Source: Stomoxys calcitrans (Eukaryota > Arthropoda > Insecta > Diptera > Muscidae). From it: DNA of 64,000 nucleotides. Shown here piece by piece: positions 5,837 through 49,229 of the stretch. The DNA lies in the NCBI RefSeq assembly GCF_963082655.1, contig NC_081554.1, forward strand, positions 192,725,752 through 192,789,751, read 5' to 3'. Each line of letters begins with the position of its first letter. Positions within the stretch are counted from its first letter, which is position 1. The position numbers were made by a program, and so were the translations under genes. The notes below the pieces were generated by a model. The model was not told the origin of the DNA, did no database searches, and saw nothing but the letters and a program-made list of their open reading frames with translations.

Positions 5837-6462
5837 AGGAGAGGAGAGGAGAGGAGAGGAGAGGAGAGGAGAGGAGAGGAGTGGAGAGGAGAGGAGAGGA
5901 GTGGAGAGGAGAGGAGAGGAGAGGAGAGGAGAGGAGAGGAGAGGAGAGGAGAGGAGAGGAGAGGAGAGGAGAGGAGAGGAGAGGAGAGGAGAGGAGAGGA
6001 GAGGAGAGGAGAGGAGAGGAGAGGAGAGGAGAGGAGAGGAGAGGAGAGGAGAGGAGAGGAGAGGAGAGGAGAGGAGAGGAGAGGAGAGGAGAGGAGAGGA
6101 GAGGAGAGGAGAGGAGAGGAGAGGAGAGGAGAGGAGAGGAGAGGAGAGGAGAGGAGAGGAGAGGAGAGGAGAGGAGAGGAGAGGAGAGGAGAGGAGAGGA
6201 GAGGAGAGGAGAGGAGAGGAGAGGAGAGGAGAGGAGAGGAGAGGAGAGGAGAGGAGAGGAGAGGAGAGGAGAGGAGAGGAGAGGAGAGGAGAGGAGAGGA
6301 GAGGAGAGGAGAGGAGAGGAGAGGAGAGGAGAGGAGAGGAGAGGAGAGGAGAGGAGAGGAGAGGAGAGGAGAGGAGAGGAGAGGAGAGGAGAGGAGAGGA
6401 GAGGAGAGGAGAGGAGAGGAGAGGAGAGGAGAGGACAGGAGAGGAGAGGAGAGGAGAGGAGA
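5837..6462. repeat. (GAGGA)n pentanucleotide array, ~125 units
   Basis: About 626 bp of nearly perfect GAGGA repeat. Only three substitutions were noticed: GTGGA variants near 5881 and 5901, and GACAGG near 6435. The plus strand is all purine except at those variants and the minus strand all pyrimidine, so it is a homopurine tract able to form triplex DNA. Because 15 bp equals three units and five codons, long open frames run through it (Arg/Gly/Glu on plus, Leu/Ser/Pro on minus). They are arithmetic by-products. Each unit contains GAGAG, the core recognised by insect GAGA factor. Confidence 0.97.
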
Positions 6463-11220: not shown

Positions 11221-11257
11221 CACGTTGCAGCCACATTTTCATGCGGAGGTGACGATC

Positions 11258-12688
11258 CACAGTGGGCCAAATGGCAAAAAAATTGGAAATAAGTCTACAA
11301 CTTTTTATCTGTTGATTTTAGCCATACAAAATGTTCTAGACATTTGTAGAGGAGGACATAGGCTTTCAGAAAAGTGCTGTTGTTGGTCCATATCTTTAAT
11401 ACAGGGTGAGCTACAGGGTGTCAAAGTTGACCACTTTTGACTTCTCCAAGCTTCTGGGGGCCATAACTTTTGATCTACTCAACCGATTTACATGATTTAG
11501 GACTCTAGAGAAAGAGCTTGACAAGATCTAAAAAACTTATGCATAAAGTACCATGCCATCGTGTACTGTTAAGGAGTTATGAATTGTTTAATTTTAAAAT
11601 ATGAAAATTTGGCCTTGGTTTTTTTCAGTGTTTTTTAAATAACTCCGTCAATTTTAAAGCTATAAACTTCATACTTCACACAAATTATGCCAGCATATGT
11701 GTGCATAAAATACAAAAGGAATCACGTGAATATCTTTGGCGGTTTAAAAATGGCATCGTTTTCAATATGAAAAATATTTTTTTTGTCAAAAAATTGCAAA
11801 ATTTTTCAAAAAAGATACTCCCATTTCCTTTAAGTTTTCGCAAACTTTGGCCGTCAAAGCATTATCATTTCTTTCCATTTTCACAAAGTCGAGGTATTAA
11901 GAAAAGTTTTAAGTGCTAATTTGGCTAATTTCGATATCAAACAACACCGTTATCTTAAGACCAAAATGGCCAATTTTTTTACTAAACTTCAAAAGTTTCT
12001 CACTGGAAAAAAAGTTCCACGGGGATTTTTTCGCTTTTTTTGAACTTAAATGAAAGCTTAAAATGTTCCCAACATTTTAAGGTATGTCTCGCCATATCCT
12101 AGCCATAAATGAGATCGTAGCGATCAAAATACTGAAAAAAGTCAATTTTCAAGTAGTGCTATATTCATTGCTAAAAAACAAGTATTACGTCACATTTTAT
12201 TGCAAAGATGTTAAATAAACTTTTATTTGGTAACACTTCTTCTACAAAACACAAAAAGAATCATGGAAATATCTCTATTCTATTCCATTTTATGGAACCG
12301 GCAATAAAAAAGTCAATTTTTCAAAAAAGTCGAATTTCCCAAATTTTGTTTTTGTTGTCCTAATTGCACATGACACACTATAGCCATATTTACGCAACAT
12401 ACCTTATCGTAAAGGAAATTTTCATACCTTTCCAACGATGTATAAAACATTTCTCAACTCGGATTCTATCTACTCTAAAATTCATTTACACTTCATTAAA
12501 CTCTATATAAAAATGTCTATTTGTGAAATGGAACCTTATATGGGGCCTACACTAAAACATTGATAGATTTGCCCAGGGTTTACAATACAAATGTGTTAGA
12601 ATAAAAAAAGGTCTCCTGCCAAAGTTTAAAAAAATTGGAATAAAAATATGTGTTTTAGAGCGAAAACACTTCGCATCGGCGTGCGTTT
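11258..12688 (+). repeat. Transib left terminal inverted repeat (1,431 bp)
   Basis: Reverse complement of 15176-16601. It starts CACAGTG and ends CGGCGTGCGTTT. By eye the arms differ by one 5-bp insertion (CTCTA, about 11503-11507) and a T/A difference at 12410. The first 28 bases can be parsed as heptamer CACAGTG, a 12-base spacer and an A-rich nonamer-like AAAAAATTG. It contains a 72-codon open frame (11701-11919) whose translation is identical to one in the other arm; it shows no recognisable domain. Confidence 0.95.
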
Positions 12689-12736
12689 ATATGTATATTA
12701 GCTACTCCCAAAATAAAAAAGCATTTTAGTTTTGTA

Positions 12737-14779
12737 TTATTTGATTTTATTCTCTACCAAATAATCTAAGGTATCAAAATTTAAAAGCTCTTTAATTTGA
12801 ATGGCATCGGGATCGTCCTTATCTATATCGTCACATATTTTTGGTAGCCATTTAGTTCTGATGCTGTATAGTACCGGATCAGACGATAACAATAAATATT
12901 GAAGTAAATCATAATTTTGGTTAAATTTGGTGCTCTTTCGGGTATTGAAAAGCCGGAACTGTTTAACATCTCTATTACGGGATTCCTGAGCTTCTTCTGT
13001 AAGTTCTCCTAACGGAAGTATGTTGTATTCCACAATTTCCTTGCCATGATGTAAGACTTTATGTACTGTCGGTGTTAAAGCTTTCCACGAATATAAATCA
13101 GATAAAATGTTTTTTGTGTCATTACTATAAGCTTCAAATTTGGTTGAATTTATCATCTTTTTGCTATTGATTACAGCCAAAATCACTTTGAATCGTCTTA
13201 GCAAGTGTTCATCAAGACCGGTTATTTTAGATGTCGATACGGGGTCCTCAAAAAACCGCCTTGCCGAGTTGCCATCATTTGTGCTTCCGTATCCGTAAAG
13301 AGGTTTATCTATTATAAGTCCCTTTTGTTTAAACTCCAACTGGATTCGATTCTTCTCTTCCTGCCTCATTTTGTGAAGATCTTGGTTGTTTCTAGCAGAG
13401 ACATCGCGGTTTCCAGGGCTAGTCCGATATTTAAGGTCATACGATAAATGCAAACAATACTCCATGAATCGAATTCTACAGTGCAGGGGCGAAATACCGA
13501 AATTGAGCGCATTTTCGTTTACTAAATTTTCATCAGACTTGTCCTCGAATTGCCCATTCTTCTTGCCACAAATATTGCATCTCCAATTGGACATAACGCC
13601 AGTTAATGCGTTTGCCACCTTTCCATCGATCATAGTGAGTTGTAGTTGAAACGAAACTTTTATATTTCTTCCCAATTGGTTTATAACAATCATGGGTAAT
13701 GCAGCAATTTCTTCCTTTATTTCGTTCACCAAAGATCGTGTTGTGTTCCGGTCTTCCTTTGTATACTCAAACCGAATTGGGCGACATAAATATTTTGACC
13801 CAGGTGTTCTATTTATCCATATATCTTGAAATGCATTTTCTTTCGATGATGAAGATTGGTCCTTGTACAATCTCATTCTCAATGGTACTAATGATGCCAT
13901 GAAAATTGATGCGAAGTTGGTATCTATTTCTGTTTGTTGCTTATATTCGGAAAATCCAGATGATCCATCACAACCCCATTTGCTGATCAAAACCACTTCG
14001 GAATTATTACATGTGTTCAACTGTTCTTCAGTAAAATTAGAAATAATTCTAACAGCTGTATTTTCAACAAGATCAGCAAGTTTCACTCTTGCTTTTAATT
14101 CGTCCACGTATATATTTGATGGCACCATTTTCGTCCTGGTGTTGTACAATTTATGTTTTGAGGGTAAACAACCCCATCCTTTTTCACGAAGAGCCTTCCT
14201 CATTGTTGAGTATTTGTTTCTTGAGAGGCCTAGGTTCAAAATCAGGGCCAGTGCATCTTCCTCCGTGAATTCTGTAGTCGATTTTGGAGTTGGAATACTT
14301 TCTACCATTCTCTTTACCCTTTTCGGAGATGCTAATGGTAAAACATCGACAATTCGTCCAACATTTTTTGGTTGTGTTTTTAACAATGCTGTTTTGAACG
14401 TATCTTTTATTAAATTTGGCGGATGTGCCGCCAATAGTTCCTCTTGTTTTTTCTTTTTGGTTTTCTCCGTAACTTCGTCGTATGCTTTGCTAGGCCGGCC
14501 GGGAATCAGCGGTTTAATTTCAATAAGTAGATCCGATTTCAGCCACTTCTCATACATTTTGAAAAACTTGATTTTTGCGAATGAACATTCTGGCAACCTT
14601 CTCTCAAATGATTTGTAGAATTTTTCAAGTTTGTCTAAAGCGTCTTTATTTAGCCTTATTCCATATATGTGGTCCAAAGTGTAAACAAGTTCCTTAAATG
14701 ACTCCGTGTATGATTTGGAATCATTTTTGATGTCCCATACAATTTTCGAAAGAGTGGAATACTTCAGTATGACTTCCAT
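12737..14779 (-). CDS. Transib-family (RAG1-like) DDE transposase, 680 aa
   Basis: Encodes the cut-and-paste transposase that would bind the CACAGTG ends and excise and integrate the element. Its family shares ancestry with the RAG1 core. Seen in the sequence: the first catalytic Asp in SKWGCDGSSGFSEYKQ (D271); a second in LTMIDGKVANALTG (D385); a zinc-type CxxC pair in WRCNICGKK (C401, C404); a His pair region TVHKVLHHG (H573, H577); and the acidic LPLGELTEEAQESRNRD block (E595, E596, E599), one of which should be the catalytic Glu. The N-terminal part is Lys-rich and probably DNA-binding (inference). An in-frame TAA two codons upstream of the ATG supports this start. AATAAA overlaps the final codons. 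The length of 680 aa fits the family, and no stops or frameshifts are present. It is the only intact transposon protein in the window. Activity is not shown. Confidence 0.93.
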   Translation of the reverse strand: MEVILKYSTLSKIVWDIKNDSKSYTESFKELVYTLDHIYGIRLNKDALDKLEKFYKSFERRLPECSFAKIKFFKMYEKWLKSDLLIEIKPLIPGRPSKAYDEVTEKTKKKKQEELLAAHPPNLIKDTFKTALLKTQPKNVGRIVDVLPLASPKRVKRMVESIPTPKSTTEFTEEDALALILNLGLSRNKYSTMRKALREKGWGCLPSKHKLYNTRTKMVPSNIYVDELKARVKLADLVENTAVRIISNFTEEQLNTCNNSEVVLISKWGCDGSSGFSEYKQQTEIDTNFASIFMASLVPLRMRLYKDQSSSSKENAFQDIWINRTPGSKYLCRPIRFEYTKEDRNTTRSLVNEIKEEIAALPMIVINQLGRNIKVSFQLQLTMIDGKVANALTGVMSNWRCNICGKKNGQFEDKSDENLVNENALNFGISPLHCRIRFMEYCLHLSYDLKYRTSPGNRDVSARNNQDLHKMRQEEKNRIQLEFKQKGLIIDKPLYGYGSTNDGNSARRFFEDPVSTSKITGLDEHLLRRFKVILAVINSKKMINSTKFEAYSNDTKNILSDLYSWKALTPTVHKVLHHGKEIVEYNILPLGELTEEAQESRNRDVKQFRLFNTRKSTKFNQNYDLLQYLLLSSDPVLYSIRTKWLPKICDDIDKDDPDAIQIKELLNFDTLDYLVENKIK

Positions 14780-15175
14780 AACTTATAAATGTCCTTTACG
14801 CCTCTACAAAATATAATGAAGAAAATTTGGATTTTGTTCAAATATTTATGCAATATATTCACAATTAATGACCCATTTCAGGTATCAGACGCAATCGTAA
14901 AAAGGGGTCCAAAGTGCCTCTTTTTACTTACTCTTCTATAATTATTTACCTGGACTCGAATTTGGTTAAAAAAAATGACAATGAATTTTTTATGGGTAGG
15001 TTTTTTCACATTCATTGATACGGTGGATTTCCTGGGAATTCGACATAGCGAAACAGGTAACATTTGTCTGCATCAAATCTTAACACAAATATATATATAT
15101 ATGCAGGTATATTTCTAGGTTACTTTTTATTCAAAAATCATCAGCTTACATTAAAAATAGATGTAGGTACTATAC

Positions 15176-16601
15176 AAACGCACGCCGATGCGAAGTGTTT
15201 TCGCTCTAAAACACATATTTTTATTCCAATTTTTTTAAACTTTGGCAGGAGACCTTTTTTTATTCTAACACATTTGTATTGTAAACCCTGGGCAAATCTA
15301 TCAATGTTTTAGTGTAGGCCCCATATAAGGTTCCATTTCACAAATAGACATTTTTATATAGAGTTTAATGAAGTGTAAATGAATTTTAGAGTAGATAGAA
15401 TCCGAGTTGAGAAATGTTTTATACATCGTTGGAAAGGTATGAAAATTTCCTTTTCGATAAGGTATGTTGCGTAAATATGGCTATAGTGTGTCATGTGCAA
15501 TTAGGACAACAAAAACAAAATTTGGGAAATTCGACTTTTTTGAAAAATTGACTTTTTTATTGCCGGTTCCATAAAATGGAATAGAATAGAGATATTTCCA
15601 TGATTCTTTTTGTGTTTTGTAGAAGAAGTGTTACCAAATAAAAGTTTATTTAACATCTTTGCAATAAAATGTGACGTAATACTTGTTTTTTAGCAATGAA
15701 TATAGCACTACTTGAAAATTGACTTTTTTCAGTATTTTGATCGCTACGATCTCATTTATGGCTAGGATATGGCGAGACATACCTTAAAATGTTGGGAACA
15801 TTTTAAGCTTTCATTTAAGTTCAAAAAAAGCGAAAAAATCCCCGTGGAACTTTTTTTCCAGTGAGAAACTTTTGAAGTTTAGTAAAAAAATTGGCCATTT
15901 TGGTCTTAAGATAACGGTGTTGTTTGATATCGAAATTAGCCAAATTAGCACTTAAAACTTTTCTTAATACCTCGACTTTGTGAAAATGGAAAGAAATGAT
16001 AATGCTTTGACGGCCAAAGTTTGCGAAAACTTAAAGGAAATGGGAGTATCTTTTTTGAAAAATTTTGCAATTTTTTGACAAAAAAAATATTTTTCATATT
16101 GAAAACGATGCCATTTTTAAACCGCCAAAGATATTCACGTGATTCCTTTTGTATTTTATGCACACATATGCTGGCATAATTTGTGTGAAGTATGAAGTTT
16201 ATAGCTTTAAAATTGACGGAGTTATTTAAAAAACACTGAAAAAAACCAAGGCCAAATTTTCATATTTTAAAATTAAACAATTCATAACTCCTTAACAGTA
16301 CACGATGGCATGGTACTTTATGCATAAGTTTTTTAGATCTTGTCAAGCTCTTTCTCTCCTAAATCATGTAAATCGGTTGAGTAGATCAAAAGTTATGGCC
16401 CCCAGAAGCTTGGAGAAGTCAAAAGTGGTCAACTTTGACACCCTGTAGCTCACCCTGTATTAAAGATATGGACCAACAACAGCACTTTTCTGAAAGCCTA
16501 TGTCCTCCTCTACAAATGTCTAGAACATTTTGTATGGCTAAAATCAACAGATAAAAAGTTGTAGACTTATTTCCAATTTTTTTGCCATTTGGCCCACTGT
16601 G
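15176..16601 (-). repeat. Transib right terminal inverted repeat (1,426 bp)
   Basis: Mirror of the left arm, starting AAACGCACGCCG on its inner side and ending CACTGTG at 16601. It lacks the 5-bp CTCTA insertion of the left arm. The 72-codon frame here is 15945-16163 on the minus strand, identical in translation to the left one. About 400 bp between the transposase start (14779) and this arm (14780-15175) are unique; they include an AT microsatellite near 15090 and presumably the promoter (inference). Confidence 0.95.
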
Positions 16602-16606
16602 CGATC

Positions 16607-19489: not shown

Positions 19490-21110
19490 TGGGTAACAAT
19501 AATCCGTGACGTGTTTAAATATTATCCATGATGCAGATAACAATTGTCGACGATGTGGATAACAATTATCCACGATGTGGATAACAATTATCCACGATGA
19601 GTGTAAAAATTATCCACGATGTGGATACAAATTATCCACGATGTGGATAATAATTATCCTTCATTTGGATAACACTATCCACTATGTGGGTAACAATTAT
19701 CTACGACGTGGATAATATTTATCTACGATGTGAATAACAATTAACCGTGATCTGGATACAAATTATCCACGATGTGGATATAAATTATTCACCATGTGGA
19801 AAACAATTAACCACGATGTGGATAGTAATTAACCACGATGTGGATAATAATTATTCACTATGTGGATAATAATTATCCGCAATGTGTTTAAATATTATCC
19901 ATCCTGCAGATAACAATTGTCAACGATGTGGATAACAATTATCCACGTTATGGGCAACAATTATCCACGATGTGGATAATAATTATTCACTGCGTGGATA
20001 ACAATTATCCGTAATGTGTTTATATATTATCCATGCTGCAGATAACAATTGTCGACGATGTGGATAACAATTATCCACGATGTGGATAACAATTTTCAAC
20101 GAAGTGGATAACAATTATGCACGATGTGGATAACAAATATCCACGATATGCATATAAGTTATTTACGATGTTGATAATAATTATCCACCAAGTGGATAAC
20201 AATTAACCACGATGTGGATAATAATTATTCACTATGTGGATAACAATTATCCACGATGTGGATAACAATTATCCACGATGTGGATAACAATTATCCATAA
20301 TTGGATAATTATTATTCACAAAGTTGATAATTGTTGTCCGTTTAGTGGATTATCGTAATCCAATTCGTGGATAATTGTTATCCACATTGTGGATAATTGT
20401 TATCCACATCGTGGATAATGTTATCCACATTGTGGATAATTGTAATCCGTTTAGTGGATTATTGTTATCCAATTCGTGGATAATTGATATCCACATCGTG
20501 GATAATTGTCATCCACATCGTGGATAGTTGCTATCCACATCGTGGATAATTGTTGTCCACATAGTGGACAAGTTTTATCTAAATCGTTGATAATTGCTAT
20601 CCACATCGTGGATAGTTATTATCTACATTGTGCATGATTGTTATCCACATCGTGGAAAAATATTATTCACATCGTGAATATTTTTATCCACATCGTGGAT
20701 ATTTGCTATCCACATCGGGGATAATTTTTATCTACATCGTAATTAATTTTATCCACATCGTGGATAATTGTTATCCACATCGTGGATAATTGTTATCCAC
20801 ATCTTTGGTAACTGTTGTCCACATCAATGATAAAATTTATCCACATCATCGACATCATGTATTGTTGTCATTCACATTATGGACGAAGCTTATCCAGATC
20901 GCGGATTTCATCAACTATGTGGATAACTTCGATCAACCATGTGGATAACGTGTATCCGCCTTGTGGGTGACATTTATTCATAATATGGATAACATTTTTC
21001 TCAATGGGGATAGTTTTTATCCGCAATGTTTATAGTTATAAGCTATGTGGATAACATTTATCCACGATATGTATAACTTTTATTCACGATGTGGAAAACC
21101 TCAATTTGCC
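19490..21110. repeat. 22-bp palindromic minisatellite with internal inversion
   Basis: Degenerate array of 22-bp units made of TTATCCAC and its reverse complement GTGGATAA around a 6-base spacer. The GATGTGGAT landmark at 19552 and 19574 gives the period. From 19490 to about 20310 the units read GTGGATAACAATTATCCACG. From about 20340 to 20880 they read the reverse complement (GTGGATAATTGTTATCCACA). A few forward-type degenerate units follow to 21110. The turn-over is near 20310-20340. No coding function is apparent. Confidence 0.92.
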
Positions 21111-23059: not shown

Positions 23060-24510
23060 TACATAAATAAGTTTATCCACAATGTGGAAAAGTCTATCCC
23101 CAAGGTGGATAAGTTTATCCACAAATGAATAACCCTATCCCCGACATGAAAAGTTGATCAACTCTGTGGATAAGTTTATCCCCGAAGTGAAGAAGTTTAC
23201 CCCCAACGTGGATAAGTTTATCGCTGAAGTGGATAAGTTTATCCCCGAAGTGGCTCAGTTTATCCCCGAAATGGATAAGTTTATCCCCGAAGTGGATAAG
23301 TTAATCCACGTTGTGTATAAACTTATCCCCCAAGTAAAAAATTTTTCCCTGACAGATTTGTCCACGATTTGAAGAGATTTATCCACGTTGTGGAAAAGCT
23401 TATCCCCTTTATAAATAAGTTCGTCCATGCTGTGGGTAAGTTTATTAATTTTGTGAAACAATTTATCCACATTACGGATAAGTTTATCCACGTTGTGGAT
23501 AAGTTTAACCACGTTGTGGGTAAGTTAAACAACGTTGTGAATAAGTTCATCCACGTTGTGGGTTAGTTTGTCCACGTTATGGATAAGTTAATCCACGTTA
23601 TAGATAAGTTAAACCACGTTGTGGATAAGATAATTCACGTTTTGGATAAGCTTATCCACGTTTTGGATTAGTTAATTCACGATTTGGATAAGCTTATCCA
23701 CATTGTGGATAAGTTCATACACTTTGTGGGTACGTTTATCCACGTTAATGTGGATAACTTAATCCACATTGCGGATAAGTTTATATAACTCTAAGATAAG
23801 TTAATATACCTTGAAGATTAGTTTATTAACGTTATGAATAAGTTTATCCACGTTGTTGATAAGATTATCCACATTATGGATAAGTTAATCCACGTTGTGG
23901 ATTAGTTAAACAGCGTTATGGGTAAGTTTATTCATGGTATATTTCTTGAAGATAGGTTTATCTACTTTGTGGATAAGTAAATCCACGTTGTGGATAAGTT
24001 TATCCCCAAAGTAAAGAAGTTTTTCCCCGACGGGGTTTGTCCACATTGTGGGAAAGTTTATCCCCTATATGAATAAGTTCATACACGCTGTGGATAAATT
24101 TATTCAAGTTGTGGATAAGTTCATATACCTTATCCGCATCGTGGAGAACTTTATCCGCATCGTATAGAACTTTATCCACATCGTCGAAATTTTTATCCAC
24201 ATCATGGATAACAAAATACACATTGTGGATAAAGTTTTTCGCATTGTTGAAAACTTTATCCGCATTTTGGATGACTTCATCCACATTGTGGATAACTTTA
24301 TCCGCATCGTGAGTGTTTTTTTTCCGCATCGTGGATAACTTTATCCGCATCGTGGGTTACATTATCCACATTGTAGATAATTTTATACGTATCGTGGATA
24401 ACTTTATCCACATCGTGGATCCGCATTGTGATAACTTTATCCGCATTGTGGATAACTTTTTCCGCATTATGGATAGCTTCATCTTAGTGGTGGAAAACCT
24501 TATGTAGTGT
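23060..24510. repeat. 21-bp minisatellite related to the 22-bp array, also inverted
   Basis: Units of 21 bp such as GTGGATAAGTTTATCCACG or GATAAGTTTATCCCCGAAGT run forward from 23060 to about 24115. From about 24120 to 24500 the units read GATAACTTTATCCGCATCGT, which is the opposite orientation (its reverse complement has the form GATAAAGTTATCCACGATG). The core palindrome is the same as in the array at 19.5 kb. A block around 23308-23420 is repeated with changes around 23981-24090, about 673 bp apart, showing a higher-order repeat. Since 21 bp is seven codons, heptad-like open frames appear on both strands; they are considered by-products. Confidence 0.92.
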
Positions 24511-27189: not shown

Positions 27190-28765
27190 GGCCTTAGGCC
27201 GGGGACGGTGCTCTGGATTTTTTGGGCGGTCGTTCGGCCAATTCTCACCTTCAGTTATCTGGTGTGGCTTTAAACTCTGGACAAGTGTGCCCTTCGCAGG
27301 ACGATCGAGAAGTTACAAGGTACCGCTGCAGTGCTTATCTCTCGGGCAAGACGATGTGCCCCGAAAGAGGCGCTAAATGCCATTCTCGATCTTATGCCTT
27401 TGCACCTATATGATGAGCGAATGGCAACTAAGATCGCCACTAGACTGAGGGAGTTAGGTACATGGCGCTCCTTTAACTCAGGTCATTCATCTGTTCTGCA
27501 GGGAAATGGTATGCGGCACGACAGGTTATATACCAGGTTAACAGCTTGGAAGTTGTTTTCCCGAAATGGGATCTCTGGGTTGGGGGCACCCCGCCCTTCC
27601 CGAGACACTCTGTATACACGGATGAGTCTAAATTGGATGGGGGCACTGATTATATACCAGAGAAGTCCTTCCTTGTTGATGGCTTGCAAGTCGTTATCGT
27701 GGAATGGGATCTTTAGGTTGGAAGCACCGCGCCCATCCCGGGACACAATGTATACACGGATGAATCTTAATTGGATGGCGGCACTGGAGCAGGAGTCTTT
27801 ATTGAATTCCTTGGAATCAGGGATTCTGATCCTGAAGGCAGTGAAGACGATATAGGAGCTGCCTGATCAGACCATCACGACATACATTTAAAGTCAGGCG
27901 GCGCTGAAGGCTTTGGCGTTGGTCCGCGTGAGGTTGAAACTGATTAGATGCAAACATCTTTTTCGAACCATGGGCGAAACTATCAGGCTGTACTGGGGCT
28001 CAGGCCATGAAGGTGTGGCGGGAAACGAAGCTGTAGAGGAGATGGCGAGGAATGTATCGCTGATTGAGGCCTTCGCGATTCTTAAGGTACTGGAGACGAT
28101 GTTGTTGTGGAAGCGTCGGAGCCATCAGACCGTTACGGTATATGTGGAATGTGAGGCGGCGCAGAGGGCTCTTACCTCAGGCCGCGTGAGTTCGAAACTG
28201 GATAGAAGATGCAAAGCGTTGCTTCGAAAAATGGGAAAGGCTATCACGCTTTGCTGGGTCCCAGGCCATCAAGGTGTGGCGGGGAACATGGCGGCAGAAG
28301 AGCTAGCCAGGAATGGATCGCTGATTGCCGTAGATCTTGTTATGGAATCAGTGAGACTTCCACTGTGCAAGCTTCTTATTAGTGTGGACACCTTCTACGA
28401 TGACTTAGCGAACAAGGCGTTAGCTGGTGCTACAGGTTATGGGGTGTCAAAAGTCCTGTCAACGAGAATTTCGCGAAACCGGACTCGCTTATCCTGGGGC
28501 TGAGAAAGCAAGACTGCTAAGTCTAAGTCCTGACTGGTCATTGTAATATCAGATATTTGACGTCGCCCTTGGTGTAAGGAGAGGCAGACTTCTGCAGGAT
28601 GTGCCGTGACGAGGAGAAGTTGAAGACGGACGAGCGCCTGTTGTGTCACAGCCCAGCAATTCTGAGAAGAAAACTCAGGATATTGGACGAAAACAACTGT
28701 CCGAGCCTGGATTCCCTACAGGGTCTTAGCCCTGTTGTTAATCTTGAGTCTTCATTCCACGCTAC
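27190..28765 (+). pseudogene. Jockey/R1-like LINE: RT thumb, RNase H, Cys-rich tail, duplicated
   Basis: Plus-strand relic in several frames. RT C-terminus: WIFWAVVRPILT (about 27212-27247), then AVLISRARRCAPKEALNAI (about 27327-27383). RNase H follows, with DSK/QR-type VYVECEAAQRAL (28138-28173) and CWVPGHQGVAGNMAAEELAR (28253-28312). The Cys-rich C-terminus shows CRDEEKLKTDERLLCHSPAI (28600-28660). Two internal duplications are visible: about 27544-27650 recurs at about 27682-27785 (offset 138), and 27893-28065 recurs at 28151-28326 (offset 258-261). The RNase H final motif is therefore present twice (first copy YWGSGHEGVAGNEAVEEMAR). Frameshifts make it non-functional. Confidence 0.85.
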
Positions 28766-34062: not shown

Positions 34063-34680
34063 AAAAGTCGGATGGTGCCGACACCTACCCTATGAGTAAA
34101 ACGTGGGAGCTATATCTAGTTCTGAACCCATTTTGATGGACCTCGGTGGATATTTGCAGATGGGTTATTAAACAATCCGTATAAAATGTTGATAACTACG
34201 GTTGACAAATGACAACATTATTGCAAATTACCCAAAATTTGACGGACATATGTTTGGAAGCTATGTCTTAATCTGATTCGATTTCGACCAAACGACCCAG
34301 TGAACGTCTAATAGGCTATGCGGTAGGATTATTAAAGTGTAGTCAGAGGGCAGGCGAAAAGTGAAACGCCTCAAGGAGAAGCATTCTCGCCGATTCTTTG
34401 GAACGTCAAATTGAAAAATTTTGAATGGCTGGAGCTGAGGTGTTAACGAGATCATATGCAACATATGAAGGCCCTAGATGATCCGGGAGCCTCCTAATAG
34501 GCCTGGAATTTGTCACATCGGTATTTCGAAGAGAGTTATCTCTATCTATTCTTAAATGGCAGATTTTCTACTTAGAAACGAAAAAAAAGATTCTATCCCA
34601 CTGTGCGATGTAGTAAAGCATCACTCTACACTCATCGATACTGTCCTGTATAAAAAATACGATGTTAAAAATCCAAAAGG
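34063..34680. other. Unclassified repeat-like segment
   Basis: Contains GTCGGATGGTGCCGACACCT near 34068 and TGGGAGCTATATCTAGTTCT near 34106, which look like the start of another dispersed family with a short GTCGG/CCGAC palindrome. No second copy is in the window to confirm it. Confidence 0.35.
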
Positions 34681-35654: not shown

Positions 35655-37081
35655 CTTCCGCCGGGCCGAATTTTGACGCAGCACGTTTCCTCAATAAAAC
35701 GATTTCGATATCTGACAAGGTCAAATACTTAGGAGTAATCTTGGATAGGAAACTTTAGTGGAAGTGTCACATTCAGGAGCGTACTGAGAATGCTCAGAGA
35801 TGTTGGGCAATATGCAGACGGACTTGAAATTGGGCCTGAAGCCGAGGAAAGTCCACTGGCTCCACAGTAGCGTGATTCGACCAATACTAACATACGCCTT
35901 AGTATGGTGGACTGCTATGGAGAAAAAGTGCAACGTTAGGGCCATTCAACAAGTTCAGAGAGCATATTGTCTTGGCAAAGGCTGAGCGATAAGGACCCAC
36001 GTCCACTAGGCCACTGGAGACTATTCCAGATATCCGACCCATTGGCATACAAATTAAATGTGAAACAGCCTCTGCGGCTATGAGACTTAAGGCGATGGGA
36101 AAATGGATTGAAGATGGGAGCAGCTCGTACCATCGCGGTATAATCGAGGCGACGATAGGAAAGCTGAAAGGAATGGAAGAGGTTTCCGATTGGATACCTG
36201 AGACTACACTTGAGGCCAAGATTGCTGCCAGAGGAACAGTCTTGGTTTAACGGAACCCTAGTATTTCCATCTGGAAGATCATGTTACAGGGATGGATCAA
36301 AGCTAGGTGGCAGAGTGGGCTTGGGGGTCTACATTGAGAACCTAGGGTCTGAGATCTGTTATAGACTGCCTGACCATAATATGGTCCTGCAGGCGGAGAT
36401 ACGGGCGAACACGGAATGCGTGAAGTGGTGTGGTGCTAACGCGAAGACGTCGAGTGTGAACATCTTTACGGACAGTAAAATGGCCATAAGGGCAATAACA
36501 ACCAGGACGGTAAGGTCACGAACAGTCTTGCAGTGTAAGAAGGAAATTAATGCCTTCTCTGAGGATGGCACAATCCGCATCGTTTGAGAGCCGGGCTATA
36601 CCGGAGTGAGGGGGAATGAAAAGGCAGATGCTTTGGCAGTGAAAGTCCGAGAACTGCCGTCGATAAACTTGGTTAACCCGAAGACTTTCGGGTCGCGCAT
36701 TTCGATTTAAGGGTGTGGGGGACAATCGTTACACTGTGGAACAGCGAAACAGTCGGTAGGACGGCGAATATTCAATGGGGTGATCCGGATCGCTATAACT
36801 GAAAGAAAGTAAGAAGGAGGTCATAGATTTTAGTGTCACAACAGGACACATAGGACTTCGAACTCACTTATGTAAAATCGGTGCGGAAAGTGATAGCATG
36901 TGTAGGGCATGCGGGGAAGATGATGAGACGTTGGAACTTTTCCTATGTCATTGCCCGGCTTTCGTGGCTAACAGACACCGGTACTTAGGTGTTGACACGA
37001 TACCAAATATGAACCAACTTGGGGCAGTGGTATGGAAACCAATTAAGGATTTTGTAAGTAGCACGGAATTCCTCACATAAA
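35655..37081 (+). pseudogene. Jockey/R1-like LINE: RT C-terminus, RNase H, Cys-rich tail
   Basis: Plus-strand relic needing several frameshifts. RT thumb region: KYLGVILDRKL (about 35727), PRKVHWLHSSVIRPILTYA (35842-35900), MRLKAMGKWIEDGSSSYHRG (about 36080-36140). RNase H: YRDGSKLGGRVGLGVYIE (36282-36335), QAEIRANTECVKW (36390-36430), NIFTDSKMAIRAI (36462-36500) and, after a TGA, EPGYTGVRGNEKADALAV (36588-36640). These supply the expected Asp/Glu/Asp/Asp positions. C-terminal Cys/His motif: CRACGEDDETLELFLCHCPA (36901-36960), with the frame ending at 37080. The RT palm is missing, so the copy is 5'-truncated. It lies between two 153-bp-unit elements. Confidence 0.88.
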
Positions 37082-37105: not shown

Positions 37106-38220
37106 TATACCCACCACCGAAGGATGGGGGTATAACCCATCGAAATATCAATTTCCGACCCTATAAAATATATATGTTCTTGATCATCGTAAAATTCAAA
37201 GATAATCTAGCCATGTCCGTCTGGTTATCCGTACGTCTGCTGTCCGTTTGACCGTCCGTCCCACTGTCCGTCTGTCTGTGGAAATAACGCTACAGGTCTT
37301 TAAAAATGGAGATACGGACAGAAGGTCTTTAAAAGTGGAGATTTGGAGCTGAAACTTCGCACAGATTCTTTACTTTGCCCAAAAGCAGGTTAAATTTGAA
37401 GGTAGGCTATATCCGATACGCCGATTTAGGGTCTTAGGCCCATTAAATTCACATTTATTATCCGATTTTGCTGAAATATGGTAGAGTGAGTTGTATTAGG
37501 CCTTTCGATGTCCTTCTTCAATTTGACCCAAATCGATCAAGATTTGGATTTAGCTGCCATATAGACCGATCTCTCGATTTAAGGTTTTGGGCCCTATCCA
37601 AAATCGGTCCAGATTTGGATATAGCTGCCATATACACTGATTTCTCAATTTAAGATTTTGGGCCTATAAAAGGCGCATTTATTGTCTGATTTAGCCATAA
37701 TTTGTTACGGTGAGTTGTGTTAAGCCCTTCGACGTCCATCTTCAATTTGGCGCATATCAGTTTGGATTTGAATATAGCTGCCATATAGACCGATCTCTCG
37801 ATTTAAGGTTTTGGGCCCATAAAACGTGCATTTATTGTCCGATTTCGCCGAAATTTGGGACAGTGAGTTGCGTTGGGCTCTTCAACAACTTTCTGTAATT
37901 TGGCCCAGATCGGTCAAAATTTGGACATAGCTGCCATGAAGACCGATCTCTCGATTTAAGGTCTTGGGCCCACAAAAGCCGCATTTATTGTGCAATTTAG
38001 CCAAAATTTGGTACAGTGAGTTATGTTAGGCCCTTCGACATCCTTCTGTAAATTGGTCCAGATCGGTTCAGATTTAGATATAGTTGCCATATAGACGGAT
38101 CTCTCGATTTAATGTCATGGGCAAATAAAAGGCGCATTTATTGTCCGATTTCGCCGAAATTTGGGACAATGAGTTGCGGCTCTTCAATTCAGATTTAGAT
38201 ATAGCTTTCATATACCGATA
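37106..38220 (+). repeat. 153-bp-unit element, forward, hairpin end missing
   Basis: Left end TTTTTATACCCACCACCGAA, then GGATGGGGGTATA, CATCGAAATATCAATTTCCG, a GTCCGTCTG-type tract and ACGCTACAGGTCTTTAAAAA. Unit landmarks (GCTGCCAT) fall near 37557, 37628, 37781, 37934 and 38087. One truncated 71-bp step is followed by three exact 153-bp steps. The copy breaks down at about 38220. Confidence 0.9.
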
Positions 38221-39544: not shown

Positions 39545-40906
39545 TATACCCACTTGTGTATGCACCGATTCCATGGTGACCGCATAGTGTGTTTTGAAAA
39601 GCCTAACATAAGTCACTGTGTCAAAGTTCAGTTAAATCCGATTATAAATGTGCCTTTTTTGGGCCCAAGACTTTAAATCGAGATATCGGTCTATATGGCA
39701 GCTATATCCAAATCTGGAGCGATCTGACCCAAATTGCAGAAGGATGTCGAAGGGCCTTACACAACTCACTGTCCCAAATTTCGGCAAAATCGGAGTATAA
39801 ATGTGGGTTTTATGGGCCTAAGACCTTAAATCAATGGGTTGGCCTATATGGCAGCTATATCCAAATCTGATCCGATCAGGGCCAAATTGAACAAGGATGT
39901 TGAAGGACCTAACACAACTCACTGTCCCAAATTTCAGCAAAATCGGATAATATATGTGGCTTTTATGGGCCTAAGACCCTAAATCGGAGGATAGGTCTAT
40001 ATGGCAGCTATATCCAAATCTGAACCGATCTGGGCCAAATTAAACAAATAAGTCGAAGAGGTTATGACAACTCAATGTCCCAAATTTCAGCAAAATCGGA
40101 TAATAAATGTGGCTTTTATGGGCCTAAGACTCTAAACCGGAGGATCGGTCTATATGGCAGCTATATCCAAATCTGGACCGATCAGAGCCAAATTAAAGGA
40201 ATATGTCGAAGGGCTTAATACAACTCACTGTCTCAAATTTCAGCAAAATCGGATCATAAATTTGGCTTTTATGGGCCTAAGACCCTAAATCGGCGGATCG
40301 GTCTATATGGCAGCTATATCCAAATCTGATCCGATCAGGGCCAAATTGAACAAGGATGTTGAAGGACCTAACACAACTCACTGTCCCAAATTTCAGCAAA
40401 ATCGGATAATAAATGTGGCTTTTATGGGCCTAAGACCCTAAATCGGAGGATCGGTCTATATGACAGCTATATCCAAATCTGAACCGATCTGGGCCAAATT
40501 GACGAAGGATGTTGAAGGGCTTAACGCAACTCACTGTCCCAAATTTCATCAAAATCGGATAATAAATGTGGCTTTTATGGGCCTAAGACCCTAAATCGGT
40601 GGATCGGTCTATATGGGGGCTATATCAAGATATAGTCCGATAGTGCCCATCTTCGAACTTGACCTGCTTATGGACAAAAAAAAAGAACCTGTACAAAATT
40701 TCAGCTCAATATCTCTATTTTTAAAGACTGTGGCGTGATTTCAACAGACAGACGGACAGACGGACGGACATGTCTAGATCGTCTTCGATTTTTACGCTGA
40801 TCAAGAATATATGTACTTTATAGGGTCAGGAATGGATATTTCTATGTGTTACAAATGGAATGACAAAATAAATATAACACCATCCTTCGGTGGTGGGTAT
40901 AAAAAG
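39545..40906 (-). repeat. 153-bp-unit element, reverse, six perfectly spaced steps
   Basis: The best example of the period. CTATATGGCAGCTATATC landmarks start at 39691, 39844, 39997, 40150, 40303, 40456 and 40609; every step is exactly 153 bp. Units are highly similar (ATCGGATAATAAATGTGGCT, CTAAGACCCTAAATCGG). The right end reads CAGACAGACGGACAGACGGA, GATCAAGAATATATGTACTT, then CCATCCTTCGGTGGTGGGTA. The left (hairpin) end is missing. Confidence 0.95.
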
Positions 40907-41191
40907 ACCATCTGCATGATCTCTGCATCCTTTTAGTACAGCTGTATGCATCCAACCTTCGAGAGTCTCTCCCAAGTACCCTTTCTGAGAGTTATGTAAA
41001 TTTTGCCCTGGCTAATATGTGTGTTGTTCATTATTGCTTGTTTGGTTGTATGGATCACATCATGTTGGGCCCAGCAAATGGAATTTTTCCACATAGATAA
41101 AACTCAAATTATAAATTATAACTTAAAAAAATTTGTTTTTTTCCATTCAGGAACTATTGCTGACACTAACTGAAGCTTATTTATATTTACT

Positions 41192-42568
41192 TTTTTATAC
41201 CCACCACCGAAGGATGGGGGTATATTCATTTTGTCATTCCGTTTGCAACACATCGAAATATCCATCTCCGACCCTATAAAGTGTATATATTCTTGATCAG
41301 CGCAAAAATCTAAGACGATCTAGACAGAAATCACGCTACAGTCTTTTAAAATTGAGATATTGAGCTGAAATTTTGCACAGATTCTTTTTTTGTCCATAAG
41401 CAGGTTAAGTTCGAAGATGGGCTATATCGGACTATATCTTGATATAGCCCCCATATAGACCGATCCTCCGATTTAGGGTCTTAGGCCCATAAAAGCCACA
41501 TTTATTATCCGATTTTGCTGAAATTTGGGACAGTGAGTTGCGTTGAGCCCTTCGACATCCTTCGTCAATTTGGCCCAGATCGGTCCAAATTTGGATATAG
41601 CTGCCATATAGACCGATCCTCAGATTAAGGGTATTAGGCCCATAAAAGCCACATTTTATATCCGATTTGGATGAAATTTGGCACAGTGAGTTGTGTTAGG
41701 CCCTTCAACATTCTTCGTCAATTTAACCCAGATCGATCCAGATTTGGATATAGCTGCCATAAAAACCGAACCTCCGATTTATGGTCTTTGGCCCATTAAA
41801 GCCACATTTATTATCCGATTTTGCTGAAATTTGGGACAGCGAGTTGCGTTGAGCCCTTCGACATCCTTCGTCAATTTGGCCTAGATCGGTTCAAATTTGG
41901 ATATAGCTGCCATATAGACCGATCCTCCGATTTATGGTCTTAGGCCCATAAAAGCCACATTTATTATCCGATTTTGCTGAAATTTGGGACAGTGAATTGC
42001 GTTGAGCCATTCGACATTCTTCGTCAATTTGGTCCAGATCGGTCCAAATTTGGATATAGCTGCCATATAGACCGATCCTCCGATTTATGGTCTTAGGCCC
42101 ATAAAAGCCACATATATTATCCGATTTTGCTGAAATTTGGGACAGTGATTTGCCTTAGACCCTTCGACATCTTTCTTCCATTTGGCCCTGATCGGTACAG
42201 ATTTGGATATAGCTGCCATATAGACCGATCTCTCGATTTAAGCTTTTGGGCCCATAAAAAGCGCATTTATTGTCCGATGTCGTCGAAATTTGGGACAATG
42301 ACTTGTGTTGAGCCCTTCGATATTTGTTTTCAATTTGACTCAGATCGGTCCAGATTTGAATATGGCTTCCATATAGACCGATCTCTCGGTTGAACAATGA
42401 CTTGTTCTTATAAGCATTTGGTCTAAATCGGATGACATCTATAGAGCTGCTGTGGGGCATAAGGTATGCATTTTTCACTGGATTTTGACGAAATGTGGTT
42501 TACATAAATACCCGAGGTGGTGGGTATCCAAAGTTCGGCCCGGCCGAACTTAACGCCTTCTTACTTGT
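41192..42568 (+). repeat. 153-bp-unit element, full length (about 1.38 kb)
   Basis: The only copy with both ends clear and units intact. Left: TATACCCACCACCGAAGGAT, CATTCCGTTTGCAACACATC, GATCAGCGCAAAAATC. Unit landmarks (CCATATAGACC) fall at 41451, 41604, 41757, 41910, 42063, 42216 and 42369; all six steps are exactly 153 bp. Right: CCCGAGGTGGTGGGTATCC, then a perfect palindrome with 10-bp arms (AAGTTCGGCC and GGCCGAACTT) around one base, then CTTCTTACTTGTT. It carries no protein other than 51-residue periodic frames. Confidence 0.95.
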
Positions 42569-43365: not shown

Positions 43366-45435
43366 AACAAGTAAAAATGTACTAAGTTCGGGGGATTCGA
43401 ACATAGGATGTTCACCATCATGAATAAATTGATTATCCTAGTTCACAATAACACCACTGTAGCCAACTATGGAACGATTTGGAACATACTGCTTTAGATT
43501 TTAGAGAAATCGGGTAATAAATGCGCCTATTATTGGCGTAAGACCCTATATTGACAGATCGGACTATGTGGCAGCTATATCCGATATGGACCACAGTCGG
43601 TTGGTATATCAGATGGCCTCGTGAAACTCACTGTTCAAAATTTCAGCGAAATCGTTAAAAAAAGGCTTTGGAGGCTTAAAAAATCAAATCACCAGATCGG
43701 TTTATATGGCAGCTATATCTAGATATGATCTGATCTAGGCAATATTAGGTTTGGATATTGGAAGGCTTTGTAAAAATCAAAGAAATTAGGAAATGAATGC
43801 GCTTGTTATGGCTATAAGATTCAATATACGAATAACGGTCTATAAGGCAGCTGTGTCTAAATATGGTGCAATGTAGTCCATACCCAGCACGGATGTCAAG
43901 GGGTCTAATAGAACTCACTGTTCCAAGTTTCAGCGATTGCGCTTTATGGGCTGAATACGGCCGATAGGTCTTCATGCCAGATATATTCAAATATAATCCA
44001 ACCTGGAGCACATTTGATATGGATTTCGGAAGGTTGAGTACAACTCACGATTTAAAATTTCAGCAAAATCAGACGGTAACTGTGCATTTTATGAATTAAA
44101 GACCCTATACCGGGATATCGGTCTATGCGGCAGCTATCCTTTCCATGCGCATTTATCACCCGATTTATCTGAAATTTGGCACAGTTTTATTAGGACCCAA
44201 TATTTGATTCGAAAATGGTCCACATCGGAACATATTTAGATATAGCTGTCATATAGACCGATCTGCGCGATTTTGATTCTCACCCGGCTTGGCTGAAATT
44301 TTAGACAGTGAATTGTATCAAGACTCCAAATATATGTACCGAACATGGTCCATATCGCGCTATATTTACATATAGCTGCCATAGAGACCGATCTTCAACT
44401 TTAGGGCCTAAAGACCATTAAAGAGGATTTATTCTCCGATTTTACTGAAATTGCGCAGTATTTGCACTAGTGGTCGGGCCATATTTACTTATAGCTGCAA
44501 TATAAACCGATATGCCGGTTTTGGGTCTTAAGCCTATAACAAGCACATTTATTACCGGATTTCGCTCAAATTCAGAACAGTAAGATTTATTAGGCTCTCG
44601 ATGTTCGATCCAAAAATGGTCCAGATCGGAACATACTTGGGTATAGCTGCCACATAGACCGATCTGCCGATTTTGGGTCTTGGGCCTATAACAGACGCAT
44701 TTATTACCGGATGTCGCTGAAATTTGAAACAGTGAGTTCTATTAGGCCTTTCGATATCTGAACCAAAGATAGTCCAGATAGGAACATATTTTTATCTAGC
44801 TGCCATAGAGACCGATCTTCCGATTTTATGTCATAGGCTTATAATAGATTCCCGACATCCAGCCCAAATATGGTCCAGATCGGATCATCCGAATAAGGAC
44901 TAAATCACATGAACGGCGCACTTATTACCCTCTTTTGGTGAAATTTCGAACTCACTTAGGAAGGAGTAAAGCTAAACGCTTGAAACTTTGCACAAATGCT
45001 TCTTAAAAGTGTAGATCGGTTACGATTGTTGTTGTTTCTTGAGCCATTGCAGGGCGCAATTCTTATCTGATTTAGATGAAATTTTGCAAAAGGGGTTTTG
45101 TTATGACTTCGAACAACTGGACTAAGTATGGTTCAAATCGCTCCATGTTCTGATATAGCTGCACATAAACCGATCTTGAATTCTTGAGTCGCTACATAGC
45201 GAAATTCGTATCCGATTTGACTGAAATTTCTGCATGACGTGTTTTGTTATGACTTCCAACAACAGCACCAAATATGGTTTAAATCGGTTCATAACCTGAT
45301 ATAGCTGCCATATAAAACGACCTGGGATCTAGACTTACTAAGCCTCTAGAGAGCGCAATTATTATCCGACTTGGTCCCATGACCATCAACATACGTGTAT
45401 GAAGTGAAAGCAATTCACTGATTCAAATGTAAAAT
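43366..45435. repeat. Composite of reverse and forward 153-bp-unit elements
   Basis: Begins AACAAGTAAAAATGTACTAA with a decayed palindrome, and reverse-oriented units run to about 44150. From there units read in the forward orientation (GATATAGCTGTCATATAGAC near 44240, then landmarks near 44379, 44498, 44650 and 44803 with steps of 119, 152 and 153 bp). Past 45000 a second subfamily appears (GACTTCCAACAACAGCACC). The block ends directly at the CTTAT array. Confidence 0.8.
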
Positions 45436-48000
45436 CTTATCTTATCTTATCTTATCTTATCTTATCTTATCTTATCTTATCTTATCTTATCTTATCTTAT
45501 CTTATCTTATCTTATCTTATCTTATCTTATCTTATCTTATCTTATCTTATCTTATCTTATCTTATCTTATCTTATCTTATCTTATCTTATCTTATCTTAT
45601 CTTATCTTATCTTATCTTATCTTATCTTATCTTATCTTATCTTATCTTATCTTATCTTATCTTATCTTATCTTATCTTATCTTATCTTATCTTATCTTAT
45701 CTTATCTTATCTTATCTTATCTTATCTTATCTTATCTTATCTTATCTTATCTTATCTTATCTTATCTTATCTTATCTTATCTTATCTTATCTTATCTTAT
45801 CTTATCTTATCTTATCTTATCTTATCTTATCTTATCTTATCTTATCTTATCTTATCTTATCTTATCTTATCTTATCTTATCTTATCTTATCTTATCTTAT
45901 CTTATCTTATCTTATCTTATCTTATCTTATCTTATCTTATCTTATCTTATCTTATCTTATCTTATCTTATCTTATCTTATCTTATCTTATCTTATCTTAT
46001 CTTATCTTATCTTATCTTATCTTATCTTATCTTATCTTATCTTATCTTATCTTATCTTATCTTATCTTATCTTATCTTATCTTATCTTATCTTATCTTAT
46101 CTTATCTTATCTTATCTTATCTTATCTTATCTTATCTTATCTTATCTTATCTTATCTTATCTTATCTTATCTTATCTTATCTTATCTTATCTTATCTTAT
46201 CTTATCTTATCTTATCTTATCTTATCTTATCTTATCTTATCTTATCTTATCTTATCTTATCTTATCTTATCTTATCTTATCTTATCTTATCTTATCTTAT
46301 CTTATCTTATCTTATCTTATCTTATCTTATCTTATCTTATCTTATCTTATCTTATCTTATCTTATCTTATCTTATCTTATCTTATCTTATCTTATCTTAT
46401 CTTATCTTATCTTATCTTATCTTATCTTATCTTATCTTATCTTATCTTATCTTATCTTATCTTATCTTATCTTATCTTATCTTATCTTATCTTATCTTAT
46501 CTTATCTTATCTTATCTTATCTTATCTTATCTTATCTTATCTTATCTTATCTTATCTTATCTTATCTTATCTTATCTTATCTTATCTTATCTTATCTTAT
46601 CTTATCTTATCTTATCTTATCTTATCTTATCTTATCTTATCTTATCTTATCTTATCTTATCTTATCTTATCTTATCTTATCTTATCTTATCTTATCTTAT
46701 CTTATCTTATCTTATCTTATCTTATCTTATCTTATCTTATCTTATCTTATCTTATCTTATCTTATCTTATCTTATCTTATCTTATCTTATCTTATCTTAT
46801 CTTATCTTATCTTATCTTATCTTATCTTATCTTATCTTATCTTATCTTATCTTATCTTATCTTATCTTATCTTATCTTATCTTATCTTATCTTATCTTAT
46901 CTTATCTTATCTTATCTTATCTTATCTTATCTTATCTTATCTTATCTTATCTTATCTTATCTTATCTTATCTTATCTTATCTTATCTTATCTTATCTTAT
47001 CTTATCTTATCTTATCTTATCTTATCTTATCTTATCTTATCTTATCTTATCTTATCTTATCTTATCTTATCTTATCTTATCTTATCTTATCTTATCTTAT
47101 CTTATCTTATCTTATCTTATCTTATCTTATCTTATCTTATCTTATCTTATCTTATCTTATCTTATCTTATCTTATCTTATCTTATCTTATCTTATCTTAT
47201 CTTATCTTATCTTATCTTATCTTATCTTATCTTATCTTATCTTATCTTATCTTATCTTATCTTATCTTATCTTATCTTATCTTATCTTATCTTATCTTAT
47301 CTTATCTTATCTTATCTTATCTTATCTTATCTTATCTTATCTTATCTTATCTTATCTTATCTTATCTTATCTTATCTTATCTTATCTTATCTTATCTTAT
47401 CTTATCTTATCTTATCTTATCTTATCTTATCTTATCTTATCTTATCTTATCTTATCTTATCTTATCTTATCTTATCTTATCTTATCTTATCTTATCTTAT
47501 CTTATCTTATCTTATCTTATCTTATCTTATCTTATCTTATCTTATCTTATCTTATCTTATCTTATCTTATCTTATCTTATCTTATCTTATCTTATCTTAT
47601 CTTATCTTATCTTATCTTATCTTATCTTATCTTATCTTATCTTATCTTATCTTATCTTATCTTATCTTATCTTATCTTATCTTATCTTATCTTATCTTAT
47701 CTTATCTTATCTTATCTTATCTTATCTTATCTTATCTTATCTTATCTTATCTTATCTTATCTTATCTTATCTTATCTTATCTTATCTTATCTTATCTTAT
47801 CTTATCTTATCTTATCTTATCTTATCTTATCTTATCTTATCTTATCTTATCTTATCTTATCTTATCTTATCTTATCTTATCTTATCTTATCTTATCTTAT
47901 CTTATCTTATCTTATCTTATCTTATCTTATCTTATCTTATCTTATCTTATCTTATCTTATCTTATCTTATCTTATCTTATCTTATCTTATCTTATCTTAT
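45436..48000. repeat. (CTTAT)513 perfect pentanucleotide satellite
   Basis: 2,565 bp of uninterrupted CTTAT; no substitution was seen in any line. On the minus strand every unit contains AGATAAG, which matches the GATA-factor consensus WGATAR. It starts after ATGTAAAAT and stops at CTTGTCTTTCG. Its length in the genome may be uncertain because assemblies often mis-size pure arrays. Confidence 0.99.
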
Positions 48001-49229
48001 CTTGTCTTTCGTTATCCTAAGGTAATGTTTTATGAGAAACTGTTCAAATTGCCAAAAATTAATTTCTTTAAATTTCCAAATTAAAATTTGATGGGTTTAC
48101 ATTTCGCAGACCTGACCTTTGAAGTGTTAAACCAGTTCAACAGATTAAATGATGATGTTTCGAAGGTTGCCGATTACTTTCATTTGTGTGTGTTAAGAAA
48201 TGCCTCCATAAAGCCTTTTATGCTTGATCGAATCCAGGGATTTGTGTTTCACATAACAAAACGCATACACGCTCATTCACTCATACTTACACAAGCCACC
48301 TAGAGAGGCAATCATTTGGGTGGCATACAAATGTAAAGCTATGAAGAGCTGAGAACGAGTTAGAATTTGTAATCAAATATGTGTAAGTGCTTGTTGGCCT
48401 TTTGGGGTCAAGATTGTATTTGTAATTCAAAGACACATAGTAGGCGAACACACAACCGCATACTTAGTCTCATACTCTTGAAGTTCTTTTCAGTTAAATG
48501 CATACAAATCTTGGTAATCATTGAAGCGATTTGCTTAAATGAAAATCAACATTGATTGCTACAACAAAGTGATGCCTTTCATTATAATGGCCAATAACAA
48601 TGCAAGTGAAACTAATTGACTTTAACTTTGATTGACTTTTCTAAGAACCCCAACATGAGCACACACAGCACATGTGTGAATTTAAAAGAAATTATAAAAA
48701 TATTCTTTTCATATGAAGAACAAAAGAGGGACAAAGATAGAGAAATCAAATTCAATATACATACATATATTAAAAATCAAAAAAATAAAAGATTTAAGCA
48801 AATCTTCTTTACATAATCTGTTCAAAAATGTACACCCTCTGTGCTACATAAAAGAACGTTTGGAACATTTACTATTTCTTGGCGTTTACAATTTTTGATG
48901 GTGCTCCTCTTTGGTTAGTGCATTGTCCATAATACTATAAAGTAGCTGTTGGTCGCAGAACTCGTTGTTTAGCTGATTGGGTTGTTAAGAGTTGACTTGA
49001 CGTATAAGCTGTGCATTCGGATATGTATAGTGGAACTGCTGGATAGGCCCTAAAGTAAAAATCGAGTGATACATATATATGGGAGCTATATCCATATCTG
49101 AACTAATTTTTCTGAAATTCGCCAATAACCTCGGAAGTCATAAGAGAAACCTCGGAAGTCATAAGAGAATCGCGACAATCGGTAAACAAATGACTTAATT
49201 ATTGGAGAAGTACAAGGCCGTTATTACAA
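48001..49229. other. Unclassified non-coding DNA with a short repeat fragment
   Basis: Mostly single-copy. About 49066-49100 resembles a 153-unit (ATATGGGAGCTATATCCATA). A 22-bp stretch starting ACCTCGGAAGTCATAAG is duplicated in tandem around 49128-49170. No coding similarity was seen. Confidence 0.45.

Follow-up and report, generated by a model that had tools for sequence, protein, structure and literature searches.

The 64,000-nucleotide stretch of Stomoxys calcitrans DNA analysed here, hereafter the window, contains at positions 11258-16601 an element of 5344 bp with the ends CACAGTG...CACTGTG on the plus strand. This element is very probably an autonomous cut-and-paste transposon of the Transib superfamily that multiplied very recently and, judging from the sequences of its copies, probably still moves. 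Its anatomy, the homology and triad alignment of its transposase, its insertion signature, a set of near-identical copies and the concordance of its two arms were observed directly. Features of the superfamily that are present comprise homology to the transposase core, the D, D, E triad, the C..C and H..H pairs, terminal heptamers, a CG-rich 5-bp target site duplication (TSD) and a single gene. The V(D)J recombinase has been traced to the Transib family, and with heptamer ends and an intact transposase gene of identical sequence in at least 41 copies, the element offers itself as a candidate for an active member of that family. Transib invasions and Transibs with long terminal inverted repeats (TIRs) have already been reported, and the element is an addition to a known group; what sets it apart is how many intact and identical copies it has, and how well the variants of its two arms agree.

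Anatomy of the element

An earlier note on this DNA had reported a 5-bp duplication, CGATC, CACAGTG termini on both sides and one uninterrupted transposase of 680 residues. The duplication and termini were confirmed, and the transposase is indeed encoded by one ATG-started frame on the minus strand (Table 1). When the gene was shuffled 200 times, the longest stop-free stretch in any of the six frames was 179 residues, as opposed to 680 in the real sequence. These shuffles, together with the signature of ends and TSDs in 41 copies (see below), rule out a chance origin of reading frame, ends and duplications.

Table 1 Features of the Transib element and position of the ~153-bp tandem repeats in the window
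Feature	Positions	Strand	Basis
Left target site duplication, CGATC	11253..11257	.	read directly
Left terminal inverted repeat, 1435 bp, starts CACAGTG	11258..12692	+	arm comparison
RSS-like heptamer CACAGTG, left end	11258..11264	+	read directly
Transib transposase gene, 680 aa, single open frame	12737..14779	-	ORF list, homology
Non-repeated stretch between start codon and right arm, 392 bp	14780..15171	-	distance computed
Right terminal inverted repeat, 1430 bp	15172..16601	-	arm comparison
RSS-like heptamer CACAGTG, right end (CACTGTG on +)	16595..16601	-	read directly
Right target site duplication, CGATC	16602..16606	.	read directly
~153-bp tandem repeats	39601-42383, 37603-38178, 54830-55518, 57485-57965, 63306-64000 and others

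A feature that goes beyond the first description is the pair of inverted arms of about 1.43 kb, which together account for over half of the window element. The two arms are distinguished by a single 5-bp indel and two substitutions. The indel is a deletion in the right arm, opposite 11502-11506; none of the 20 copies in the initial comparison has this deletion or the base at 15454 of the right arm, and each of the two occurs in one of 39 rows of the wider comparison. The second substitution lies near the inner edge and is common to those 20 copies. The 392-bp non-repeated stretch in front of the gene probably holds a promoter or leader. Internal repeats of the arms were found in short or weak form only. 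Rfam gave no match above gathering scores, and the predicted single-strand fold of the left end was nothing special (z 0.19).

The ends of the element are symmetric, carrying the same sequence on both sides. A search for a nonamer at 12/23 spacing gave 6 of 9 matching bases at best, with spacers of 11 and 9, a score that 39 of the 1426 arm windows also reach; an arrangement like that of 12/23 recombination signals is thus unsupported, as chance alone often yields matches of this quality in the arm. Close to the arm's inner edge (12618-12645), 21 of 28 bases match the terminal motif. This match was seen first and put to a shuffle test afterwards, and since 5 of 500 shuffles were equal or better, the case for a second transposase-binding site is weak and none is claimed. 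Another potential Transib end at 34599-34605 (CCCACTGTGCGAT) is attributed to chance because the bases next to it differ from those of the element, and the CACAGTG motifs at 41682 and 57888 lie in or beside the 153-bp repeats. DNA comparison revealed no further pieces of the element within the window, protein search returned a single chance-level match (E 9.9), and the joined flanks used as a query for an empty site in the window gave no match across the junction.

The transposase and its relatives

Among solved structures, the transposase matches chain 6pqn_A best (E 6.8e-84, query residues 165-643), with 175 of 455 aligned residues identical (38%). The structure record labels this entry just 'DNA-mediated transposase'; we take it to be the HzTransib transposase of Helicoverpa zea. 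Residues D271, D385 and E599 of the Stomoxys protein align with chain residues 109, 208 and 419. The catalytic residues of HzTransib are D126, D225 and E436 according to a review (PMC6941560). The offset between the two numberings is 17 at all three positions, and this constancy bears out both the identity of 6pqn as HzTransib and the triad D271/D385/E599. The two aspartates are those singled out in the earlier note, and the catalytic glutamate of the acidic block it had pointed to is E599, inside EEAQES. Its CxxC and His pairs are C401/C404 and H573/H578, which align with Cys and His residues of the solved chain and correspond to a zinc site whose role is known from RAG1. An AlphaFold model from the single sequence was unusable (mean pLDDT 35.8), so the assignment of the DDE fold rests on sequence homology. 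The NCBIfam profile search of the transposase returned no family, and Pfam gave no match to a P-type transposase or THAP domain up to E 1.

The proposal that the protein belongs to Transib, and not to another superfamily, is thereby upheld by sequence and profile searches with 6pqn_A as best match, by alignment of the triad with the residues published for HzTransib, and by the ends of 41 copies and TSDs of 39 of them. Could the element instead be a transposon of the RAGL/ProtoRAG type, or a RAG1-like gene domesticated by the host? The C-terminal part does match Pfam RAG1 (E 1.2e-5), at 24.1 bits just below the curated cut-off of 25, and solved RAG1L and RAG1 chains match weakly. These chains rank behind 6pqn, however, which is by far the best match, and the first 170 residues find no significant counterpart among solved chains (best E 0.21). 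The only other ATG-started reading frame of at least 80 codons wholly inside the element runs antisense to the transposase gene; there is no second sense frame from ATG of this size, and no RAG2-like gene was seen among such frames. A domesticated gene would moreover be expected as a single copy, but heptamer ends occur in at least 41 copies, 39 of which have TSDs. We regard both variants of this alternative as highly improbable.

For a Transib element, the following course of events can be proposed. The single gene would give rise to a DDE transposase resembling the RAG1 core, which is predicted to bind the CACAGTG ends and whose activity is assumed by analogy. If HzTransib is a guide, excision would follow nick-and-hairpin chemistry: a nick, a hairpin on the flanking DNA, blunt transposon ends, and then a staggered attack 5 bp apart, steps taken from the biochemistry of HzTransib and RAG1 as summarized in PMC6941560. 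Insertion would occur at CG-rich 5-bp targets (CGNCG) and create the 5-bp duplication, and multiplication would have been so recent that the interior has stayed identical in at least 41 copies.

Copies, insertion sites and arm variants in the host genome

The host genome (1.07 Gb, 297 contigs) was searched with the 2479-bp interior, which includes the transposase gene. A first look gave 865 candidates, of which the best 40 were scored, a procedure that biases the set towards perfect copies. Each of the 40 matches the query at 100% identity along its entire 2479 bp and carries the exact transposase reading frame; their positions run from 0.33 to 95.3 Mb on one 272-Mb contig (C1). The window copy lies on a different contig (C3) and is absent among the 40 best of 865; perfect copies thus exist beyond those 40. 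As only the best 40 were scored, the perfect identity is partly an effect of selection, which may have left older or defective copies out of view. Extending the copy density of the occupied 0.33-95.3 Mb of C1 to the entire genome would predict about 450 copies, a figure that is an extrapolation and not a count. Including the window copy, the CACAGTG heptamer is intact at both ends of all 41 copies. Searches for relatives outside the host confirmed none of 3 pattern matches in the viral collection and none of 45 in the prokaryote collection. The 18-base end of the element does not occur in viral contigs and occurs three times in prokaryote contigs, which on a rough estimate does not exceed chance expectation in 257 Gb.

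An exact 5-bp TSD flanks 39 of the 41 copies. The two exceptions (L010 and L015) are full-length with two flanks lacking a common TSD, and are possibly products of recombination between copies. Counted by position over 39 duplications, C occurs 33 times at the first, G 31 times at the second, T 17 and A 12 times at the third, C 30 times at the fourth and G 33 times at the fifth. The resulting consensus, CGNCG, is that of Transib TSDs. It is present in exact form in 15 of 39 cases, compared with a frequency of 0.0011 in the window; CG stands at one or the other end of every one of the 39, and their overall G+C content is 71%. A length of 5 bp and GC bias are given for Transib TSDs in PMC8289069. 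The mapped insertions provide a natural set for measuring target choice.

The insertion sites also bear on whether segmental duplication or assembly error, instead of transposition, has spread the identical copies, as the same 2479-bp interior in 41 places might suggest. The left flanks of the 39 copies compared are all distinct, and 39 of 41 copies have an exact 5-bp TSD of their own. Two insertions, L014 and L022, occupy the same point of two copies of a repeat; next to the junctions their flanks agree to no more than 81-86%, and their arm variants differ, which marks them as separate insertions into a recurrent target. On these grounds, spread by duplication or misassembly is scarcely credible. 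The dispersed repeat hit by these two insertions (flanks L044-L047) is also found to the left of the window copy, at about 9.7-10.9 kb.

The near-identity of the copies points to recent amplification. The copies are not uniform in every respect. Of 39 copies measured, 30 have a length of 5349 bp, the window copy has 5344 bp, and three carry arm deletions (5282, 5271 and 5330 bp). Note that this comparison of 39 copies leaves out L032 and L033 because an exact 18-base end was demanded; these two have one substitution each, outside the heptamer, and possess TSDs. The 39 copies represent 34 distinct element sequences with a mean pairwise difference of 5.6 substitutions per element, all falling in the arms because the interior had been selected as identical, and the arms contain 42 singleton substitution columns. 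This low-level variation indicates that the copies do not stem from a single generation. Along with the deletions in three of 39 copies, it would suit a burst that lies in the past and has since been silenced by small RNAs of the host, perhaps aided by hairpin RNA from the long arms, leaving the copies intact but immobile. Against this speaks the transposase gene, intact and identical in all 40 other copies, even though these were selected for identity. We therefore consider silencing a possible but rather unlikely explanation and prefer an element that probably continues to move. The suggestion in the earlier note that the element is young and potentially mobile has thus gained from 40 other copies with identical interior and from distinct sites in the 39 compared.

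Four sites vary in several copies, and do so on both arms. At these sites, left and right arm agree in 35, 38, 36 and 35 of 39 copies (one-sided Fisher p 2.5e-3, 3e-9, 6e-6 and 2e-6, values that are too small since shared descent among copies inflates significance). A mutation arises on one arm, and matched pairs therefore call for copying between arms. Because several different matched haplotypes exist, conversion is needed despite shared descent. The likely route is gene conversion during gap repair: the 1.43-kb arms would stay alike within a copy by copying of one arm from the other, perhaps in the course of repair after excision. Kilobase arms with variants matched between left and right would make arm homogenization accessible to study from sequence alone. 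Going one step further, we tentatively entertain, at somewhat less than even chances, that a Transib invasion has been caught in progress, with hundreds of intact autonomous insertions and arms kept alike by repeated arm-to-arm conversion. If so, gap repair after excision would both copy and homogenize the element.

Known systems and surroundings of the element

The closest characterized system is HzTransib. Residues 165-643 of the Stomoxys transposase are homologous to its protein, the D, D, E triad and the H..H pair being aligned, and HzTransib likewise has a 5-bp TSD. The discovery paper (PMC1852546) describes Hztransib as an element of 3518 bp with 'long TIRs', a deduced product of 489 residues and the TSD GCTCG. 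The Stomoxys element, in contrast, comprises 5344 bp (5349 in most copies) and encodes 680 residues, about 160 of which are additional at the N-terminus relative to the solved HzTransib chain; identity in the common part is 38%. Given the 'long TIRs' of Hztransib, the long arms, though noteworthy, are no novelty as such. Beyond that mention, the accessible portions of the openly licensed literature yielded no report of kilobase arms in Transib.

A recent burst has a precedent in Drosophila Transib1, a Transib DNA transposon of 3030 bp that likewise spread recently as near-identical copies, in this case worldwide in D. melanogaster around 2013-2016. For that invasion, PMC12230796 offers dating by time-stamped samples and a proposed donor. 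With symmetric TIRs, an RSS-like heptamer and no recognizable nonamer, the Stomoxys element agrees with most Transib families, which have little or no nonamer (PMC8289069). It differs from those Transibs for which PMC8355894 describes nonamer-like sequences and 12/23 spacers, neither of which was found here.

ProtoRAG/RAGL transposons and the RAG1-RSS system resemble the element in their CAC-starting heptamer, CG-rich 5-bp TSDs and aligned DDE residues (PMC8289069 and PMC7204232), and the Stomoxys heptamer is exactly the RSS consensus heptamer CACAGTG. Unlike ProtoRAG/RAGL, it has symmetric ends, no RAG2-like gene was seen, and no nonamer at 12/23 spacing is recognizable. Galileo, a Foldback-like insect DNA transposon of the P superfamily, also has long inverted arms, but its transposase is unrelated, in keeping with the missing P-type match in Pfam, and its arms are internally repetitive with THAP sites, as stated in PMC3688188, whereas the arms described here hold only short or weak repeats.

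The earlier note had described the rest of the window as decayed. This holds insofar as no other long open frame stood out besides those of simple repeats; two RNase H fragments (Pfam PF00075) emerged in addition, both on the plus strand, at 27892-28500 (E 9.7e-9) and at 36168-36584 (E 1.7e-4, below the cut-off). They are probably remnants of non-LTR retrotransposons. A dispersed family of tandem repeats, each unit measuring about 153 bp (51 codons), occurs in both orientations (Table 1) and presumably resembles repeats of calyptrate flies. Tandem 21-22-bp repeats of a palindromic kind (TTATCCAC..GTGGATAA) occupy 19490-20956 and 23066-24483. Two pentanucleotide arrays complete the picture: (AGGAG) at 5837-6462, with 125 copies and 99% match, and (ATCTT) at 45434-48008, with 515 copies and 99% match, the latter strikingly pure for its length.
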